Source: Gemmatimonadota bacterium | Lineage (GTDB): Bacteria; Latescibacterota; UBA2968; UBA8231 | Assembly (NCBI GenBank): GCA_002712305.1 | Contig: PATE01000009.1 | Coordinates: 2,700-12,690, forward strand | Direction: 5' to 3' | DNA: 9,991 nucleotides | Shown: one piece after another, positions 1,885-8,259 of the stretch | Layout: each line of letters begins with the position of its first letter | Numbering within the stretch: the stretch's first letter is position 1 | Position numbers and translations under genes: made by a program | Notes under the pieces: model-generated | The model's input: only the letters and a program-made list of their open reading frames with translations | Told to the model about the DNA's origin: nothing | The model's database searches: none

Positions 1885-2607
1885 ATGGCTCAAATAGCCG
1901 AAGACTACGTATCCCCATCTGTGCGCTGGGGAATCCTCAAGCAGGACTACCCCGACGCTGTCGTGGAGTTCACGCAGCGCCTTGGTACCGAGATCGGGAT
2001 CCCTGAAAACTTCGGGGGCAAGGACCAGTACTGCGTCGCCCAAATCACACTCCGCCCCAACGACCCCGATGTGGTCATGGGGTACAAGCCGATTTCCGAC
2101 GCCCGCTCCGGTAAAGGTGACCACGCTTCTGATGCGTGGAACGTCCTCTGCACCAAGGCGATGGGTCGTGCCCTCAAGCGTGCCGGTTACGCCGACACAG
2201 CAGGAGAGATGCGCGTCCTTGTCCAGTACAAGCAGCGCCTCGCCGAGCAGGACGCCACCCGTGGCGGTGTCGAAGCACCGATGCCTGTGATCACTGCTGC
2301 CCCTGTCCACAACAGCCCGCTGGTAACCGAGGTTGAGGACGAAGAGTTCGACGCCGTTATCGCCGAGGTAGAGGTCGCTGACGTTTGGGACTCCGACGAG
2401 GAACGCGACGAAGCACACGTCGCCCTCAAGGCCACCGTTGTGGCACTACCAGCAGAGTACGCAGACAAGGCCCGTGATTCACACGAGAAGTTGAACGGTC
2501 GGCAGTGGCCGATGACGAGCGTCGCTCAGTTCAACACCCTCAAGAACTTCGTAGCCTCGCTCCACCTTGAGTGGGAGGCCGCTGGTTACGAGGACGAAGC
2601 ATCGTGA
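1885..2607 (+). CDS. Putative single-strand annealing/Rad52-ERF-like recombination protein
   Basis: A 240-residue protein. The N-terminal ~115 residues look like the ERF/Rad52-like single-strand annealing group found in phage recombination modules: opening R-W-G-I-L-K-Q-D-Y-P-D, then a strand segment Y-C-V-A-Q-I-T-L-R and, after S-D-A-W-N-V, the helix T-K-A-M-G-R-A-L-K-R-A-G-Y (residues about 92-105), matching the T-K-A-x-G-R-A-L-x-x-x-G-Y signature. Such proteins coat single-stranded DNA and anneal complementary strands during recombination-dependent replication. The middle (about 145-180) is a very acidic linker, followed by a small helical domain (R-Q-W-P-M-T-S-V-A-Q-F) and an acidic tail (E-D-E-A-S), as in single-strand DNA-binding proteins that recruit partners. 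Its stop overlaps the next ATG. The family call rests on a short signature, so a different ssDNA-binding protein remains possible. Confidence 0.5.
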   Translation: MAQIAEDYVSPSVRWGILKQDYPDAVVEFTQRLGTEIGIPENFGGKDQYCVAQITLRPNDPDVVMGYKPISDARSGKGDHASDAWNVLCTKAMGRALKRAGYADTAGEMRVLVQYKQRLAEQDATRGGVEAPMPVITAAPVHNSPLVTEVEDEEFDAVIAEVEVADVWDSDEERDEAHVALKATVVALPAEYADKARDSHEKLNGRQWPMTSVAQFNTLKNFVASLHLEWEAAGYEDEAS

Positions 2608-2963
2608 TGCTCGCTTCTCCGTTTGAGGTCGGCGTTGTTGGAGTCACGTTCAGGGGGTCTGCATACCCTCAGAACGTCTTCGAGATTGCTTCCCACATCG
2701 GCGTAGCGGAGCGCCCGTTGAAAGCCGACCTTGTCAGAGAACCCGGCAACCCGGTAGACAGCAAGGCCCTAAAGGTCGTGTACAAAGGCGCCCACATTGG
2801 GTACCTGCCGAAAGCAATAGCGTCGCAACTTTCCGATGAAATCGACGCTGGGACGACATGGTTTGCGATCATTGACCGCATTATCGTGTCGCCCGAAAAC
2901 CCCGAACAACCCGGTATCAGATTGAGAGTGTTCCGCCGTGAACTTGAACGACAAACTGCTTGA
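2607..2963 (+). CDS. Stand-alone HIRAN-domain protein
   Basis: A 118-residue protein that is almost entirely a HIRAN domain: opening strand V-G-V-V-G-V-T-F (about residues 8-15), then L-V-R-E-P-G-N-P-V-D (42-51) and H-I-G-Y-L-P (63-68), followed by a helix and a closing strand. The R-E-P-x-N-x-x-D and I-G-Y-L-P motifs are the family's hallmarks. HIRAN binds 3' single-stranded DNA ends and is known best as the N-terminal domain of the fork-reversal enzyme HLTF; in bacteria and phages it also occurs alone. I start at ATG 2607 (overlap with the upstream stop) rather than 2571, since the extra 12 residues lie inside the previous gene and precede the domain. Its end overlaps the next GTG start by 26 nt. 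A role in recognising DNA ends or stalled forks for neighbouring proteins is inference. Confidence 0.82.
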   Translation: MLASPFEVGVVGVTFRGSAYPQNVFEIASHIGVAERPLKADLVREPGNPVDSKALKVVYKGAHIGYLPKAIASQLSDEIDAGTTWFAIIDRIIVSPENPEQPGIRLRVFRRELERQTA

Positions 2964-3507
2964 AATAGAAGAGGCAGGCAACGAACTTCGCCGCCTCATG
3001 GGCGAAGCGATCCGCTCTGCTCAGGAAGAAGCCGAAGGCGGTGACCTTGAAGGTACCGCTGGGCCTCTGGTCGACCTGCTGGAGATCATCAAGGGCATCA
3101 AAGCCAATGTCCGCGACGCCGACAACGAGGCGAACCCCACACTGGTGACGATCATGGACAACATGGGCACCAAGAAGTTCGAGCGGGGCGCCCTCAATGT
3201 TGAGCGGAAGATCTCGTCGTATCGGACGAACTGGCAGAACGACGTCCTCATCCGGTCGGTGATCAACACGGCCTTGGATGAGATTGACCCGCGTAGTTAC
3301 GTCGATCAGGAGTCCGGTGAGTTCATCAACGAGCGTGAGATCGTCGCTCCGTGGATGGACGCTATCGTGGACCGCTTGTTGGCTTGTGCCGCATTCCGCG
3401 ACTGGCGGGTGACTGCGCTGCGGGCCCACATCCCCGGTTTAGACCCTGACAACTTCTGTGATGTGAAGCGCACCGTGAAGGCGGTCGTTTCCGCGAAAGG
3501 CAAGTAA
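2938..3507 (+). CDS. Conserved phage hypothetical protein of the recombination module (189 aa)
   Basis: Starts with GTG at 2938, overlapping the HIRAN gene by 26 nt, and ends in a TAATG overlap with the initiator gene, so it is firmly in the operon. The N-terminal third is an acidic helical region with heptad-like spacing (L-L-E-I-E-E-A-G-N-E-L-R-R-L). The middle has V-E-R-K-I-S-S-Y-R-T-N-W and V-L-I-R-S-V. The C-terminal part ends W-R-V-T-A-L-R-A-H-I-P-G-L-D-P-D-N-F-C. From memory, the combination of a VE+R...W segment, an acidic linker with E-S-G-E, and a final W-R-x-x-x-L-R...L-D-x-D-x-x-C block recurs in uncharacterised actinobacteriophage proteins beside recombination genes. I know no function. 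A DNA-processing partner role is suggested only by position. Confidence 0.75.
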   Translation: MNLNDKLLEIEEAGNELRRLMGEAIRSAQEEAEGGDLEGTAGPLVDLLEIIKGIKANVRDADNEANPTLVTIMDNMGTKKFERGALNVERKISSYRTNWQNDVLIRSVINTALDEIDPRSYVDQESGEFINEREIVAPWMDAIVDRLLACAAFRDWRVTALRAHIPGLDPDNFCDVKRTVKAVVSAKGK

Positions 3508-4313
3508 TGGCGATTGAGTGCATGGTGTGGGCGTTGGAACAGGACGGCCTCAAGACCAACGAGAAGTTCGTTCTGCTTGGGATAGCCAACCATTCCAGAC
3601 CCGACGGCCAGAACGCGTTCCCATCTCTGGAGACGATAGCCCGGTACACGGCTCTGTCGGTTTCCACGGTCCAGCGGGCTATCAACGCCCTGTGTGAGAA
3701 GGGCCTGATGACGAAGGACCCCGGTGGAGGACGCAAGTCGAACACTTATACGTTGATCATGCACAGAGCAGAAGTCATACAACTAGAGATCATTGAGGGT
3801 GGTCACGGTGACCATGCTAAGAACGACCCTGTAGACCCTGAGGGTAGTCACAGTGACCATGCACCCCGGTCATCTGTGACCACGCAGCCTAGTCAAGCCT
3901 TGACCAAGCAGCCTAGTCAGGCTTTGACCAAGGAACCGTCATATATCCGTCCTACAACCGCTCTAGAACCTTCGCGCGAAAAAAAGCGTGACACGGTGTG
4001 GGACGCGATCATGGAAGCGTGCGGTGTCAACACCGCGACGCTCAACTCCAACGAGCGTGGCCGCTACAACAAGGCCGTGAAGTTGCTCAAGGAGTCCAAC
4101 GCTACGGCGCATGAGATTCACACGCGGGTGGCCGTGTACCGCCGCAAGTTCAAGGGCGCCTCGGTCACCCCGGTGGCTATCGCCAACCACTGGTCTGAGT
4201 TGGACCCGGCGACCGTCCCGGTGGAGGATGTGCTTGCGGCCCCCAAGGGGTGGACCGCCATCAAGGAAGTGCGTGAAGAGCGGAACAAGGAGAACAGCAG
4301 TCCATGGGAATAA
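3507..4313 (+). CDS. Replication initiator/replisome organiser with N-terminal winged helix-turn-helix (lambda O-like layout)
   Basis: A 268-residue protein. Residues about 17-85 form a helix-turn-helix of the HTH_36 type seen in phage replisome organisers: T-N-E-K-F-V-L-L-G-I-A, then F-P-S-L-E-T-I-A-R-Y and the recognition-helix region S-V-S-T-V-Q-R-A-I-N-A-L, then G-L-M-T-K with a basic wing G-G-G-R-K-S-N-T-Y. Residues about 90-155 are a low-complexity linker with repeated G-x-H-x-D-H-A and Q-P-S-Q-A-L-T-K units. The C-terminal domain (about 160-255) has N-E-R-G-R-Y-N-K-A and V-T-P-V-A-I-A-N-H-W, resembling C-terminal domains of DnaD/initiator-like phage proteins that contact the helicase machinery. 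The linker DNA carries a phased inverted-repeat array (3802-3928), the lambda O/ori arrangement. TAATG links it to the gene before; a small ORF starts inside its 3' end. An ordinary phage repressor is less likely given the domain order and neighbours. Confidence 0.75.
   Translation: MAIECMVWALEQDGLKTNEKFVLLGIANHSRPDGQNAFPSLETIARYTALSVSTVQRAINALCEKGLMTKDPGGGRKSNTYTLIMHRAEVIQLEIIEGGHGDHAKNDPVDPEGSHSDHAPRSSVTTQPSQALTKQPSQALTKEPSYIRPTTALEPSREKKRDTVWDAIMEACGVNTATLNSNERGRYNKAVKLLKESNATAHEIHTRVAVYRRKFKGASVTPVAIANHWSELDPATVPVEDVLAAPKGWTAIKEVREERNKENSSPWE
3795..3862 (+). repeat. Two 23-nt direct repeats 45 nt apart, each with a GTCAC/GTGAC palindrome
   Basis: Copies at 3795-3817 and 3840-3862 match at 21 of 23 bases. 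Each contains an inverted repeat: GTCACGGTGAC (3802-3812) and GTCACAGTGAC (3847-3857). They encode the G-x-H-x-D-H-A units of the initiator linker. Both mismatches fall at equivalent positions flanking or centring the palindrome. Confidence 0.9.
3802..3985 (+). other. Candidate replication origin inside the initiator gene
   Basis: Five GTCA-N(3-5)-TGAC inverted repeats lie at 3802-3812, 3847-3857, 3869-3880, 3892-3904 and 3916-3928. Their centres are 45, 22.5, 23.5 and 24 nt apart, about two (or four) helical turns, so all face one side of the DNA; one degenerate position near 3830 would complete the row. Short A/T-rich tracts follow: ATATAT at 3940-3945 region and an A7 run at 3979-3985. Iterons in the middle of the initiator gene next to an A/T-rich zone is the arrangement of the lambda origin within gene O. 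The array itself is directly visible; the origin function is inferred. Confidence 0.6.
3885..3932 (+). repeat. Two 24-nt tandem repeats encoding QPSQALTK twice
   Basis: Copies at 3885-3908 and 3909-3932 match at 22 of 24 bases, and both differences are synonymous (CAA/CAG, GCC/GCT). Each carries a GTCA-N5-TGAC inverted repeat (3892-3904 and 3916-3928). Confidence 0.9.
3980..3986 (+). other. Possible -1 ribosomal frameshift site A_AAA_AAG
   Basis: In the initiator reading frame the codons AAA AAG are preceded by A, giving the heptamer A_AAA_AAG, the slippery site used by E. coli dnaX. A -1 slip would read GCG then TGA (3989-3991), ending the protein at about residue 161, just after the DNA-binding domain and linker. 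A possible stem 3994-3999/4030-4035 starts 7 nt downstream; a competing local hairpin (4021-4036) is as good. No internal Shine-Dalgarno stimulator is seen. Confidence 0.3.
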
Positions 4314-4420
4314 ACAAGCAGGACGACGACACGTTCACACTCGGGGAACTTCGCAAGATCCGCGGGCTGGATTTGAAGCCGGTGAAGAAGCCCCCCAAGA
4401 AGAAAGCCAAGAAGACATGA
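4304..4420 (+). CDS. Small lysine-rich hypothetical protein (38 aa)
   Basis: A 38-codon ORF, ATG 4304 to TGA 4418-4420. Support is positional: AAGGAG (4287-4292) lies 11 nt before the ATG, the ORF starts 10 nt before the end of the initiator gene, spans the gap exactly, and its stop overlaps the next ATG (ATGA at 4417-4420), the linkage style of the whole operon. The N-terminal half is mixed and acidic (K-Q-D-D-D-T-F-T-L-G-E-L-R-K-I-R-G-L-D-L); the C-terminal half is a K/P tail (K-K-P-P-K-K-K-A-K-K-T), as in nucleic-acid-binding tails. The T-L-G-E-L-R-K-I-R-G-L segment could be a single helix. I do not recognise it. It might be a small DNA-binding accessory factor, or mainly serve to couple translation. 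Confidence 0.6.
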   Translation: MGINKQDDDTFTLGELRKIRGLDLKPVKKPPKKKAKKT

Positions 4421-4821
4421 GCGGTCTAGACACGGCAGCGATGAAGCAACGCTTCCAGCAGCGCGCCGATGCGGTACGAAACCGAAACATGCCTCCGATC
4501 GCTGGCGCTGAACGCAAAGCGTTTGTTGAGCAGGCCGAACTTGACTATCAGGATTTTCTGCTTCTCGCTGACGCTGAAATCAGTTTGGACGGGGGCATCC
4601 TGACGGTCGATCTCCGGCCAGCGATCTGTGACGCCGCTATCCGAGGCGAGGGGCATTTGGAAACGGAAACCAAAGCAGCGATGGACAACATCGCCAAGGC
4701 GCTCCCGACCGACGGAAACAAGATCACCACCAAGATGCTTGACTCCAAAGCCGACCTCAAAGCCCTCATCGACGGTGCCGAGATGTTCAGGGTGGTCGAC
4801 ACCATTGAGCCAATCCAATGA
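4417..4821 (+). CDS. Conserved phage hypothetical protein (134 aa)
   Basis: Start chosen at ATG 4417 (ATGA overlap with the 38-aa ORF); the frame is open further upstream but only as out-of-frame reading of the initiator gene. The protein begins M-S-G-L-D-T-A-A-M-K-Q-R-F-Q-Q-R-A-D-A-V-R, a basic helix, followed by M-P-P-I-A-G-A-E-R-K-A-F, then E-L-D-Y-Q-D-F-L-L-L-A-D-A-E and the strand pair G-G-I-L-T-V-D-L-R-P. From memory, the succession R-x-x-x-V-R-x-R...P-P-I-x-G...R..F...A..D..D-F..L.D-A-E...L-R resembles an uncharacterised family in actinobacteriophages. No catalytic motif is evident. Its stop overlaps the loader start (ATGA at 4818). Position between initiator and loader suggests a replication accessory role, but this is inference. 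Confidence 0.75.
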   Translation: MSGLDTAAMKQRFQQRADAVRNRNMPPIAGAERKAFVEQAELDYQDFLLLADAEISLDGGILTVDLRPAICDAAIRGEGHLETETKAAMDNIAKALPTDGNKITTKMLDSKADLKALIDGAEMFRVVDTIEPIQ

Positions 4822-5129
4822 CCGACGACCACGCTGACTACGTCCTAGCCAAGTTGAGCGTCGTGTTCCCCAACAAGACCCTCACAGTGGAAGAGGTCAA
4901 GTTCTGGATTGAGAAACTGGCCCCCTACGACTTTGACGACGGCATGGAAGCCGTTGGGATGGTCGCTGATTCTTCCAAGTTCTGGCCGTCATGGTCTGAG
5001 TTTCGTGACTGCCTGCACGCCATCCGCCGACGCCACGACACGAAGGGCCTGCCTGCCCCGACAACCGAACCTGTCAGCAAGGAAGAGGCGAAGCGCTACC
5101 TGAGCGAGATACGGGCGAGCCTGCGATGA
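4818..5129 (+). CDS. Putative helicase loader (G39P/lambda P-like small protein)
   Basis: A 103-residue helical protein. Residues about 20-66 have T-V-E-E-V-K-F-W-I-E-K-L-A-P-Y-D-F-D-D-G-M-E-A-V and then F-W-P-S-W-S-E-F-R-D, the pattern of the N-terminal domain of small phage helicase loaders/inhibitors such as SPP1 G39P: a W-x-x-x-L segment, an aromatic/acidic turn, and a (F/W)-x-P-S-x-x-E-(I/F) motif. Such loaders bring the host or phage DnaB-type helicase to an initiator-marked origin. The rest is a basic, probably flexible tail (A-I-R-R-R-H-D-T-K-G, K-R-Y-L-S-E-I-R). No Walker motif, so it is not a DnaC/DnaI ATPase. ATGA overlap upstream. Location just after the initiator supports the call; no replicative helicase is in this window, so the partner is elsewhere in the genome or the host's. 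Confidence 0.5.
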   Translation: MTDDHADYVLAKLSVVFPNKTLTVEEVKFWIEKLAPYDFDDGMEAVGMVADSSKFWPSWSEFRDCLHAIRRRHDTKGLPAPTTEPVSKEEAKRYLSEIRASLR

Positions 5130-5157
5130 ACAACCTTGAAAAGCGGCAGAGGTGCTT

Positions 5158-5184
5158 TCCTCCGCTTACCGGATCGGCGGAGGA
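5158..5184 (+). promoter_or_regulatory. Hairpin covering the ribosome site of the resolvase gene
   Basis: TCCTCCGC (5158-5165) pairs perfectly with GCGGAGGA (5177-5184) across an 11-nt loop. The right arm contains GGAGGA, the only Shine-Dalgarno candidate for ATG 5197 (12 nt away), so folding would hide it. This fills most of the 67-nt gap, the only sizeable gap between 1885 and 5986. Confidence 0.45.
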
Positions 5185-5190
5185 TAGGCT
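5185..5190 (+). promoter_or_regulatory. -10-like box TAGGCT 6 nt before the ATG at 5197
   Basis: TAGGCT (TANNNT) ends exactly 6 nt before ATG 5197, as at 1192 and 1393; it also contains the in-frame TAG that bars an upstream start. A leaderless resolvase transcript would avoid the hairpin at 5158-5184. No clear -35 is visible. Confidence 0.35.
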
Positions 5191-5196
5191 CCCTGT

Positions 5197-5595
5197 ATGG
5201 CTCAGGCCAAACGGCGACCTACCTCATGGACGATCGTTGTTGAAGGGCACCTCTTCACCCTCAACGGTGAACGGACCATGCACTACCACAAGCGAGCCCG
5301 ACTCATTAAGACTTGGCGAGAAGCCGCTTTCGAAGCGGCGCGGAAAGCGAAGGTTCCGAAGATGACCAAGGTTGACATCGTCTGTCAGCCGTGCCGCGGC
5401 ACGAGACGCAACATGGCTGACACGGGCGGGCACTTCCCGGTGGCGAAGGCATGCATCGACGGCTTGGTCGACGCTCAGGTGGTCAAGGACGACGGCCCCG
5501 AATTCGTCAGGTCGCTGACGTTCCGATCCCCGTACATAGAGAAGGGGACGGAAGACAGGATGATTCTGATTATCAACGAAGTGGGTAAGTCGTGA
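5197..5595 (+). CDS. RusA-like Holliday junction resolvase
   Basis: A 132-residue protein of RusA length. After the N-terminal strand pair (W-T-I-V-V-E-G-H...R-T-M-H-Y) and a basic helix (R-A-R-L-I-K-T-W-R-E-A-A), the core motif is D75-T-G-G-H-F-P-V-A-K84-A-C-I-D-G-L-V-D-A then K-D-D99-G-P-E-F-V. This matches the phage RusA pattern D...K-A-x-x-D-G-L-x-D-A-x-x-x-x-D-D. In RusA the aspartates bind Mg2+ and the lysine assists cleavage of four-way DNA junctions. Compared with E. coli RusA (D-x-D-N-x-x-K) the second aspartate is replaced by glycine and the lysine is shifted by a small insertion, a variant I associate with phage members. ATG 5197 is the first start after an in-frame TAG at 5185. 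It overlaps the next gene by 4 nt (GTGA). Likely job: resolving recombination intermediates or reversed forks. Confidence 0.78.
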   Translation: MAQAKRRPTSWTIVVEGHLFTLNGERTMHYHKRARLIKTWREAAFEAARKAKVPKMTKVDIVCQPCRGTRRNMADTGGHFPVAKACIDGLVDAQVVKDDGPEFVRSLTFRSPYIEKGTEDRMILIINEVGKS

Positions 5596-5903
5596 CCGCC
5601 ATCGAAGAGATGCAGTCTGGCCTGTCAGAGGCAGAGGGGACCGAGGATCCTCTGGAGCGGGCACGGATCCTCAACGAGAAGGTTCTCCCGGCGATGGCCG
5701 CTCTCCGGCAGGGGGTCATCAAGCAGCGGGCTCTGTCGGTTAAGGAAGCCTGTGATTTCGGAGACGGTGGTGGCGGCCTGACCTATTCGCAGGTCGCTTC
5801 CGAGTTGGGCGTCTCGAAGCCCCTCATCCAGCAGATGGTCGCGTTGGCTAGGGAGATACACACTCTCCGGCTTGCGGCCAAGTCCAACGGATCGGGGAGA
5901 TGA
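5592..5903 (+). CDS. Small helix-turn-helix protein
   Basis: A 103-residue protein starting with GTG 5592 in a GTGA overlap with the resolvase stop. The N-terminal part is an acidic helical region (E-E-M-Q-S-G-L-S-E-A-E...E-R-A-R-I-L-N-E-K-V). The C-terminal part carries a sigma-4/ParB-like helix-turn-helix, residues about 62-90: L-T-Y-S-Q-V-A-S-E-L-G-V-S-K-P-L-I-Q-Q-M-V-A-L-A-R (read across the turn G-V-S). The D-F-G-D-G-G-G-G-L run before it is a flexible hinge. It probably binds DNA; as a regulator it could control the SNF2 promoter just downstream, which is speculation. A perfect palindrome GAGGATCCTC lies within the gene at 5643-5652. Its stop overlaps the next ATG. Confidence 0.7.
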   Translation: MTAIEEMQSGLSEAEGTEDPLERARILNEKVLPAMAALRQGVIKQRALSVKEACDFGDGGGGLTYSQVASELGVSKPLIQQMVALAREIHTLRLAAKSNGSGR

Positions 5904-5986
5904 AGTGGTGGGAGTACGCCGGTAACGGGGCTCTCCTGTTCGCGGGCGTGATGATTCTGGTGGTTTATTTCAAAAAAGTTCAGTAA
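5900..5986 (+). CDS. 28-residue single-pass membrane microprotein
   Basis: ATG 5900 overlaps the preceding stop (ATGA), as elsewhere in the operon, and the ORF ends at TAA 5984-5986. The peptide starts M-K-W-W-E-Y-A, then has an uninterrupted hydrophobic stretch (G-A-L-L-F-A-G-V-M-I-L-V-V-Y-F) of about one membrane span and ends K-K-V-Q, a layout predicting one transmembrane helix with a basic cytoplasmic end. It is too short for most gene callers. No Shine-Dalgarno core apart from G-rich sequence directly before the ATG; translation is probably coupled. Function unknown: candidates are a small holin-like, host-envelope or inhibitory peptide. Confidence 0.6.
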   Translation: MKWWEYAGNGALLFAGVMILVVYFKKVQ

Positions 5987-5991
5987 CGAGG

Positions 5992-6020
5992 TTGGCATTG
6001 GTCCGGTGCTAGTGTACCCT
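5992..6020 (+). promoter_or_regulatory. Candidate promoter TTGGCA-N17-TACCCT for the SNF2 gene
   Basis: TTGGCA (5992-5997) and TACCCT (6015-6020) are 17 nt apart. The -10 ends 7 nt before ATG 6028, so the mRNA would start at or within a base or two of the start codon. No Shine-Dalgarno sequence precedes the ATG, in keeping with a leaderless message. An alternative extended -10, TGC-TAGTGT (6007-6015), is also possible. Confidence 0.5.
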
Positions 6021-6027
6021 TTGGTGT

Positions 6028-8259
6028 ATGACTGACACGACTGCCATCAAAGACACCACTGCCACCCTGCTCCACCACGCGGCGCTTCAACTGTCCGCTC
6101 ATTGCGACGGCGCGATTTCCGAAGACGGTGTGGGCTTCAACGGCTCCGACACCAAGTTCGGCAACCGCGTTGCCATCATCCCAGCGGAGGACTGGACCGA
6201 CGCCATGGCGTGGGAGGTCCACCAGATGCTGCTCAAGTACAAGCGCCAGTTGGCGTGGTACGGCGTTGACTATGACGCCATCCCCGAGCCCCCGCGCCCG
6301 ATGTCCCTTGGCGACCCTCGCGGAGAGGCTCGTCAGAAGGCCCGCTCTATCGAAGGTGTGTCCACACGCAAGATCTCTCTGTCCAACGACACGTTCATCG
6401 TTCGTTTCGACTACGACGCCCGCTGTGTGTCTCAGGTCCGCATGATCCCCGACGCGTACTGGTCTGGCGCCCACAAGGTGTGGTACGTCCCCACCACGTC
6501 GGCTGCTGCCGTCCGCGCATTCGCTGACAGCAACCTGTTCGTCCCGACCGTTGAGGCTGCCATGATCCTGAACGGCGTGAAGGCCGAGGAAGCCGTCATG
6601 CCCGAGCCGAAGAAGCGTGTCCTGACCCTTGAGGGCCGCAAGATCGTCTTCTCCTTTGAGTACGACGCCGACCTTGTGTATTCGGTCAAGGCCATCCCCG
6701 GTCGTCAGTGGGACTCCAAGGCCAAGACGTGGTCCGCTCCGCTCACCTCAGGGTGGGACGCGATCGGCGTTGCCCGCGCATGGGATTTCGAGATCTCACC
6801 CGAGGTCGAAGCAGCCATCGACGGCGACGTCTATGAGCAGCAGCACCGCGAGCAGTTGTCCGGCGCCCACGACTACGAGATCGACATCGAAGGTCTCGGC
6901 ACGGTTCACCCGGTCACGGGTGACGCCATCGAACTCCGGCCTTTCCAGAAGGCTGGAGTCGCCTACGCGCTCGAAACGAAGCGCTGCTTCATCGCAGACG
7001 AGATGGGCCTAGGCAAGACCGTCCAGTCGCTGGCCGCGATTCAGGGTGCCAACGCGTACCCGATGCTGGTCGTGTGCCCCGCTTCATTGAAGATGAACTG
7101 GGAGCGTGAGGTCCGCATGTGGCTTCCCGGCAAGACCGTCCACATCGTCGACAACAAGGTCGGCGTGAAGAACGCGGACGTGGTCGTTATCAACTACGAC
7201 ATCCTCGCCAAGCAGAAGGTCCCCCTCAAGGGCATGCGCTTCCAGTCGTTGGTGTTCGACGAGAGTCACTACGCCAAGACCAGTAGCGCCCAGCGCACGA
7301 AGGCCCTCAAGGAGATCGCAGCGTCGATCCCCGCCGAGGGTCTGGTCCTCGCGCTCACAGGGACACCCGTCCTCAACCGCCCGATCGAACTGGTCTCCCA
7401 GTTGGAGATCCTTGACAGGATCGACGATTTCGGCGGGTCGTGGAACTTCCGCAAGAAGTACTGCGACGCGAAGCACAACGGCTACGGCTGGGACTTCAAG
7501 GGCTGCTCCAACGCGGACGAGTTGAACGAACTGCTTCGTCGCACCTGTTACGTCCGTCGCCAGAAGGCTGACGTCCTCACCGAACTGCCCGCCAAGGGCC
7601 GTTACACGGCTGAGGTCGAAATGGGTCACGCTGCTATGGCTGCGTACCGTGCCGTGGAGAACGACACCCTTGTGTGGCTGGCTGACGGCCAGCGGCATGA
7701 GCAGGCTGACGTGCTGTCCAAGATCACGACCCTCAAGCGCCTAGCGGGCGAGGGCAAGGTCGAAGCCGCCATTGAGTGGATCGACTCGTTCCTTGACAGC
7801 ACCGACCGCAAGTTGGTCGTGTTCGCCCACCACATTTCCGTGGTGGACGCTTTGGCTGCCAAGTACGGCGGTCTCAGGGTTGCCGGTAAGGACTCTTCGG
7901 AGGCCCGTCAGGCTGCCGTGGACACGTTCCAGAGCGATCCCGACGCACGGGTCATTGTCCTGAACATGAAGGCTGGTGGTGTGGGCCTCACCCTCACCGC
8001 AGCGTCCGACGTCCTGTTCGTAGAGCAGGGCTGGACCCCTGCCGAGCATGATCAGGCCGAGGACCGCTGTCACCGCATCGGGCAGGAAGAGCATGTGTCG
8101 GCGTGGTACCTCCTTGCGGAGGGCACCATCGATGATGACATCTATGCGCTGATCGCTAAGAAGCGGTTGGTGGTGGATGCCGTCACCGACGGGGACGACG
8201 AGGCTCAGGACAGCGTCCTCAACGATCTCGTTGCGACGCTGATCAAGAGGACGAAGTAA
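6028..8259 (+). CDS. SNF2-family annealing helicase/translocase with two HARP-like repeats (SMARCAL1/ZRANB3-like)
   Basis: A 743-residue DNA-dependent ATPase. Residues about 25-75 hold an N-terminal module with D-G-V-G-F-N-G-S-D-T-K-F-G. Two homologous HARP-like repeats follow, about 113-170 and 197-255, both with F-x-Y-D-A-x-x-V...V-x-x-I-P...W...K-x-W-x-x-P-x-T-S. The motor: L-R-P-F-Q-K (303-308), Walker A D-E-M-G-L-G-K-T (324-331), V-V-C-P-A-S-L, motif II D-E-S-H (411-414), L-T-G-T-P, the block Y-C-D-A-K...G-W-D...S-N-x-x-E-L followed by R-R-Q-K-A-D-V-L-T-E-L-P-A-K, then G-G-V-G-L-T-L and Q-A-E-D-R-C-H-R-I-G-Q (676-686). D-E-S-H and the Y-C-D-A/G-W-D block are typical of SMARCAL1/ZRANB3, which rewind RPA-coated DNA and reverse stalled forks. 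No nuclease or zinc finger is fused. All motor motifs are intact. Its own promoter lies just upstream. The fork-remodelling role is inferred from the family. Confidence 0.9.
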   Translation: MTDTTAIKDTTATLLHHAALQLSAHCDGAISEDGVGFNGSDTKFGNRVAIIPAEDWTDAMAWEVHQMLLKYKRQLAWYGVDYDAIPEPPRPMSLGDPRGEARQKARSIEGVSTRKISLSNDTFIVRFDYDARCVSQVRMIPDAYWSGAHKVWYVPTTSAAAVRAFADSNLFVPTVEAAMILNGVKAEEAVMPEPKKRVLTLEGRKIVFSFEYDADLVYSVKAIPGRQWDSKAKTWSAPLTSGWDAIGVARAWDFEISPEVEAAIDGDVYEQQHREQLSGAHDYEIDIEGLGTVHPVTGDAIELRPFQKAGVAYALETKRCFIADEMGLGKTVQSLAAIQGANAYPMLVVCPASLKMNWEREVRMWLPGKTVHIVDNKVGVKNADVVVINYDILAKQKVPLKGMRFQSLVFDESHYAKTSSAQRTKALKEIAASIPAEGLVLALTGTPVLNRPIELVSQLEILDRIDDFGGSWNFRKKYCDAKHNGYGWDFKGCSNADELNELLRRTCYVRRQKADVLTELPAKGRYTAEVEMGHAAMAAYRAVENDTLVWLADGQRHEQADVLSKITTLKRLAGEGKVEAAIEWIDSFLDSTDRKLVVFAHHISVVDALAAKYGGLRVAGKDSSEARQAAVDTFQSDPDARVIVLNMKAGGVGLTLTAASDVLFVEQGWTPAEHDQAEDRCHRIGQEEHVSAWYLLAEGTIDDDIYALIAKKRLVVDAVTDGDDEAQDSVLNDLVATLIKRTK

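Follow-up and report, generated by a model that had tools for sequence, protein, structure and literature searches.

A conserved phage gene block with an annealing-like protein, a stand-alone HIRAN protein and a HARP-like SNF2 ATPase: a probable replication and recombination module

Gene content of the locus

We analysed a stretch of 9,991 nucleotides (hereafter the window) from contig PATE01000009.1 of a bacterial draft assembly (GCA_002712305.1; 4.77 Mb in 146 contigs), and in it a gene block at positions 1885-8259 that is probably the module by which a group of tailed phages replicates and recombines its DNA. The full contig is 15,910 bases long, and its open reading frames (ORFs) resemble tail, replication and ParB-like genes, so it probably comes from a phage and was binned with a bacterium. 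The block forms one tightly packed operon on the plus strand (Table 1). A sequence-only reading of the window had named six elements here (a strand-annealing-like protein, a HIRAN protein, an initiator, a probable helicase loader, a RusA-like resolvase and an SNF2 ATPase with HARP-like repeats), and all six were located on this strand. It had not listed p189, a helix-turn-helix (HTH) gene, an ORF without assigned function, two mini-ORFs or an iteron-like array. Every gene of the block is under purifying selection, with ratios of nonsynonymous to synonymous substitution rates (dN/dS) of 0.01-0.43 across six pairs. A scan for promoters and terminators gave nothing above chance.

Table 1. Features of the block in window coordinates; gene starts are approximate, as ORFs were taken at their longest.
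Feature	Length (residues)	Position	Strand	Basis or remark
Single-strand-annealing-like protein (p240)	240	1885..2607	+	RAD52/Sak-like N-terminal core and helical C-terminal domain, AlphaFold model
Stand-alone HIRAN protein	118	2607..2963	+	PF08797
p189, conserved protein without assigned function		2938..3507	+	Overlaps HIRAN gene
Replication initiator, lambda O-like/HTH_36		3507..4313	+	PHROG 1032, PF13730
Iteron-like array in initiator gene, candidate origin		3794..3941		GTCAnnnTGAC palindromes and TGACC...GTCA units
Basic mini-ORF	38	4304..4420	+	Motif KIRGxDLKPV
ORF without assigned function	134	4417..4821	+	Present in some relatives only
Probable helicase loader	103	4818..5129	+	PHROG 2289; position after initiator
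RusA-like putative junction nuclease	132	5197..5595	+	PHROG RusA families
HTH protein	103	5592..5903	+	Weak HTH matches; overlaps rusA-like gene
Single-membrane-span mini-ORF	28	5900..5986	+	Position conserved in many relatives
SNF2 ATPase	743	6028..8259	+	PF00176; N-terminal helical CDGA...GFNGSD region, then two HARP-like repeats
HARP-like repeat 1		6370..6537	+	Residues about 115-170, model; XPB N-terminal domain match
HARP-like repeat 2		6613..6798	+	Residues about 196-257; PF07443 aligns at 210-239; 4O66 sequence and fold match

Predicted proteins and a candidate origin

The product of the last and longest gene matches PF00176 with an E-value of 4e-32 (111.9 bits) and the Helicase_C family PF00271 with 43.7 bits. 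Its Walker A and B motifs and motif VI can be read directly from the sequence (DEMGLGKT, DESH and QAEDRCHRIGQ), and the SNF2 identity stands. Its best ATPase match in the PDB is an archaeal SNF2/Rad54-family helicase (1z63). In the model, a helical region at its N-terminus precedes two beta-beta-alpha-beta-beta-alpha units. Against PF07443, the HARP family, the window protein reaches 18.1-19.4 bits, short of the cut-off of 25, and 24/24 members of its protein family match PF07443, with a best E-value of 1.1e-9. Searched as a profile, the N-terminus has a single sequence match in the PDB, the HARP domain of SMARCAL1 (4O66, E 0.028). Foldseek relates the region to XPB (probability 0.99) and to 4O66 (0.85-0.87), and VIA to the XPB N-terminal domain (Z 6.4; 56 residues, 1.7 Å) and 4O66 (Z 4.5; 63 residues, 5.1 Å); T4 UvsW is not among the fold matches listed. 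We call the repeats HARP-like because the window protein itself scores below threshold while the other evidence is supportive. The two repeats of the sequence-only reading are retained as HARP-like model units with family-wide support and middling fold matches, though not as a match above threshold in the window protein. The start of the gene (6028-6300) also encodes a near-invariant CDGA...DGVGFNGSDTKFG motif that is not in Pfam and is kept in relatives at 45% identity.

The first three genes of the block form a group of their own. No sequence family matched p240 in Pfam, PHROG and further family-profile searches. In its AlphaFold model the core mostly has a predicted local distance difference test score of 80-91, and the best folds in the PDB are the Sak protein of phage 80alpha (Foldseek probability 1.00, E 0.012) and RAD52/Sak. 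VIA gives Z 7.1/6.8 over 81-85 residues against RAD52/Sak, within an overall range of Z 6.5-7.1, a lead of about 1 over unrelated folds. The model has the fold of a Rad52/Sak-type single-strand annealing protein (SSAP), which agrees with the annealing-like call made from the sequence. The HIRAN identity is likewise upheld; the protein scores 33.5 bits against PF08797 (cut-off 24.7), a cut-off also passed by six records of the same clade and by the diverged relative G042, and the family profile matches the HIRAN structures of HLTF (E 1.8e-5). Of the residues N90, N91 and D94 in the single-stranded-DNA-binding site of HLTF, the last two correspond to N48 and D51, which do not vary in 14 phage sequences, and the N90 position is variable; in HLTF, a double mutation of N90 and N91 abolishes function (PMC4666394). 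Pfam, PHROGs and NCBIfam gave no family for the third protein, p189. Few proteins of the block are as conserved, with a mean column identity of 70% over 18 phages, dN/dS of 0.03-0.09, 93% identity to its counterpart in L003 and the motif AFRDWRVTALR..PGLDPD. A Gp157- or Gam-like identity was considered and rejected, as the 18 members gave no credible Pfam match.

The initiator call is confirmed by matches to O-like initiator families (PHROG 1032, E 1e-19; PF13730, E 3.4e-16). Embedded in this gene are GTCAnnnTGAC palindromes and TGACC...GTCA units, which form an array with a spacing of about 24 nucleotides. The density of GTCA/TGAC in the window peaks at 11 per 160 nucleotides, against a mean of 6.1 and a maximum of 10 in 50 simulations; in L003, L007, L008 and L023 the maximum is 10-11, against simulated maxima of 7-9. 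The density peak falls within the initiator gene in 9/18 contigs, the window included. The lambda origin sits inside the O gene, and the array resembles it; we regard the array as a candidate replication origin. The array is missing or diverged in L009, L010, L018, L069, L070, L072 and L073. The product downstream is a probable helicase loader; it follows the initiator and matches PHROG 2289, but the match is weak (E 1.6e-4), and 9/18 members match at 0.01. Between the two, the mini-ORF at the 3' end of the initiator gene is lysine-rich, overlaps that gene and bridges to the next ORF, and its motif is common to many relatives.

The RusA-like protein matches PHROG 9203 (E 2.8e-8), and PHROG RusA-like families match 19/19 members. 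Pfam RusA (PF05866) matches neither the window protein nor any of the six in-clade records searched, and a sequence comparison with the PDB gave no meaningful match; by sequence, the protein belongs with the phage RusA families, apart from Pfam RusA. Aligned to E. coli RusA (a modest alignment, hhalign probability 26%), the protein retains equivalents of D72, K76 and D90/D91, with Met at the D70 position in 19/19 sequences. The catalytic acidic residues of RusA are D70, D72 and D91. Since the D70N mutant of RusA is nuclease-dead (PMC4909299) and the D70 position is Met here, junction cutting is not assured. The HTH gene is kept alongside the rusA-like gene in 20 contigs and in G042. A further mini-ORF (MKWWEYAGNGALLFAGVMILVVYFKKVQ) overlaps the stop of the HTH gene, and hydrophobic mini-ORFs are placed likewise in many relatives.

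Gene order in related phages

Twenty phage contigs, including that of the window, share the order HIRAN-p189-initiator-loader-RusA-HTH. The SNF2 gene lies just downstream in 18 of them, and the other two (L067 and L069) end before its position. These contigs all fall in one clade and some are near-identical, and hence they show a module that was stably inherited, not one put together repeatedly. The SSAP/HIRAN and HIRAN/p189 genes overlap in nearly all contigs; the rusA-like and HTH genes also overlap, and p189, the RusA-like protein and the HTH protein are among the most constrained in the block. The gap ahead of the SNF2 gene, by contrast, varies from 25 to 1921 nucleotides.

G042, whose SNF2 protein is 45% identical to that of the window, has the order SSAP-HIRAN-p189-(124-residue ORF)-initiator-loader, then ParB-like genes, then RusA-HTH; clade profiles recognise its block proteins with E-values of 1e-29 to 3e-53. 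Here too p189 follows HIRAN, as in every case, while the SNF2 gene lies about 15 kb from the block, past tail genes. Outside the clade, 27 SNF2-bearing records (26 viral and one bacterial, some of them short fragments) include just one with HIRAN, G042 itself; HIRAN is missing from all 10 complete reference phages. One scan of genome contigs gave only distant SNF2 relatives. The scan of viral contigs for HIRAN used clade-specific patterns, with remote HIRAN phages beyond its reach.

The constant partners of HIRAN are thus the annealing protein, p189 and the initiator, not SNF2, given the overlaps, the loose SNF2 gap, the detached gene in G042 and the 26/27 records without HIRAN. For the same reasons we rejected an obligate HIRAN-SNF2 pair, and the dedicated pairing suggested by the sequence-only reading did not hold. 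HIRAN, HARP-SNF2 and RusA-like genes occur in one block in 18 clade contigs, and G042 has all three genes with SNF2 farther off.

Another relative, the 64 kb G062, encodes a single-stranded DNA-binding protein (SSB), a phage exonuclease (PHROG 298), ParB-like proteins, an anti-restriction-type protein (phrog_7245), endolysins and a terminase, and no unassigned polymerase-sized gene was seen among its listed ORFs. This content fits a phage that would recruit the host replisome and recombine through exonuclease, SSB and annealing protein.

HIRAN genes also occur in other settings. Bacillus phage G has the HIRAN-like gp253 (L086, 2953-3309) between the genes of its two DNA gyrase subunits. In S. 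aureus phage P954 (L083, 11563-12309) the HIRAN gene is in the lysogeny region, away from the Sak/SSB/DnaD replication genes, unlike in the window clade.

Interpretation

We propose that the block serves lambda-like initiation and recombination-dependent replication, with a UvsW-like HARP-SNF2 remodeller of forks and branches, and give this explanation as a whole a probability of about 0.6. We favour it because of the families and folds, the synteny of 20 contigs, the gene overlaps, the purifying selection, the G042 order, the G062 genes, the iterons and the T4 precedent; from this observed content, order and conservation we infer the roles of the gene products. The initiator would bind the iterons in its own gene in the manner of lambda O and, with the loader, recruit the host replicative helicase. 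The Sak/RAD52-like protein would anneal single strands together with SSB and exonuclease, whose genes lie elsewhere in G062. Co-produced with the annealing protein and p189, the HIRAN protein would bind 3' single-stranded ends or fork junctions and steer annealing and restart to them. The HARP-SNF2 ATPase would be a double-strand translocase that rewinds DNA and moves branches, a functional counterpart of T4 UvsW, and may have the capacity to regress stalled forks and bring about the change to replication that depends on recombination. The RusA-like nuclease might trim or resolve the resulting branches ahead of packaging.

Several points weigh against this proposal. The protein activities are read from sequences and models, the HARP score of the window protein is under the Pfam cut-off and the HARP fold Z values are middling (4.5-6.4), the loader match is weak, and the RusA-like protein lacks the D70 equivalent. 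The SNF2 gene is also not always in the block, so the ATPase may act independently. Part of the earlier idea of a fork reversal and restart kit nevertheless survives: a HARP-SNF2 motor, a junction-nuclease-like protein and an annealing protein do lie in one replication module, with a precedent in T4. The HIRAN-SNF2 pairing and assured cleavage do not.

A plainer alternative is that the module is simply kept by descent without any fork reversal, with SNF2 as a generic translocase for protein stripping or recombination, HIRAN as an accessory to annealing and the RusA-like protein debranching DNA for packaging. We consider this possible, if not the likeliest account. Many phages encode SNF2 helicases (matches in 1812 of 50697 records), the main role of the T4 resolvase is at packaging (PMC3016281), and G042 shows that SNF2 is separable from the block. 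However, other motors rely on their HARP domains in fork reversal (PMC4666394), and the HARP-like repeats are kept in all 24 members examined.

It is rather unlikely that the block works as a split HLTF, in which HIRAN recruits HARP-SNF2 in trans, the motor reverses forks, RusA cuts the junction and annealing restarts replication, all triggered by host defence or damage. Supplied in trans, the HIRAN domain of HLTF does restore fork reversal to HLTF without HIRAN (PMC4666394), and the three genes occur together in the clade and in G042. Outside the clade, 6/14 phages with a stand-alone HIRAN also have an SNF2-domain ATPase over the Pfam cut-off (in Pamexvirus PaMx74, about 8 kb from HIRAN), which is suggestive only, as several of these phages are similar and the figure has no matched background rate. 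Yet HIRAN follows the SSAP and p189 instead of SNF2, fork recognition may already come from HARP, the RusA-like protein lacks D70, and nothing links the module to defence. We dropped host defence as the trigger, a part of the earlier proposal that was not borne out, as no defence or anti-defence gene lies inside the block. A related idea is a split phage machine, with free HIRAN as the sensor of 3' ends or forks for HARP-SNF2 and regressed forks passed to an atypical RusA-like nuclease and Sak-like restart. Such a machine, with similarly low odds, would unite in one operon the recognition modules of HLTF and SMARCAL1, which in eukaryotes are on separate enzymes.

It is very improbable that HIRAN and SNF2 serve counter-defence or host takeover and not replication; SNF2 ATPases are tied to anti-restriction proteins in mobile elements (PMC5512222), G062 carries its anti-restriction-type gene and the SNF2 domain resembles the ZorD and DrmD ATPases, but the genes share an operon with an initiator and an annealing protein, SNF2 has neither a methylase nor a restriction partner beside it, and the ZorD/DrmD scores are far below their cut-offs.

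In the literature, we found no description of HIRAN, a HARP-type SNF2, an annealing protein and a RusA-like gene in one conserved block. Should the SNF2 protein prove to regress forks, the block would offer a minimal, purifiable system for adding or taking away the HIRAN and HARP modules independently of each other, and the SNF2 fork-reversal toolkit would be used by phages beyond the T4 UvsW lineage. The block also names p189 as a highly conserved partner of the HIRAN and annealing genes.

Comparison with known systems

The basic layout resembles lambda O/P with Red/Sak: iterons inside the initiator gene, a loader after it and an annealing protein upstream, with exonuclease and SSB elsewhere (as in G062). 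The window adds HIRAN, p189 and HARP-SNF2. Like vertebrate SMARCAL1, the modelled SNF2 protein has two HARP-like repeats preceding the ATPase, and the HIRAN core of HLTF/Rad5 is conserved in the window protein. Unlike in HLTF/Rad5 and SMARCAL1/ZRANB3, HIRAN is here a separate gene beside the annealing protein and p189, and there is no RING part.

Among phages, annotations of stand-alone HIRAN in replication regions go back at least to DLP4, with reference to Iyer et al. 2006 (PMC6469090, PMC11236537). Pamexvirus and DLP4-type phages similarly have a small HIRAN protein in the early/replication region and an SNF2 ATPase elsewhere in it (PMC6469090). PaMx74 differs in that its SNF2 lacks the HARP part, no RusA is annotated nearby and the phage has its own DNA polymerase. 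We also considered the neighbours of its HIRAN gene as relatives of p240 and p189, and rejected this for want of a match.

The closest functional parallel may be T4. Its UvsW carries a single HARP domain and does not belong to the SNF2 proteins, unlike the window protein with its two HARP-like repeats and SNF2 ATPase. In vitro UvsW drives fork regression, and in vivo regressed forks depend on it; such forks are the proposed substrate of gp49 and gp46/47 (PMC3016281, PMC4666394). UvsW and gp49 (endonuclease VII) thus pair a phage HARP-domain superfamily 2 motor that regresses forks with a resolvase, a likeness for which the window's side is known from sequence and models. T4 differs in its UvsX strand exchange, in having no HIRAN and in the placing of its genes, which do not share one operon with an initiator. 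That a phage can reverse forks with a HARP-domain helicase plus a resolvase is already known from T4; what is new is the split HIRAN/HARP-SNF2 arrangement.

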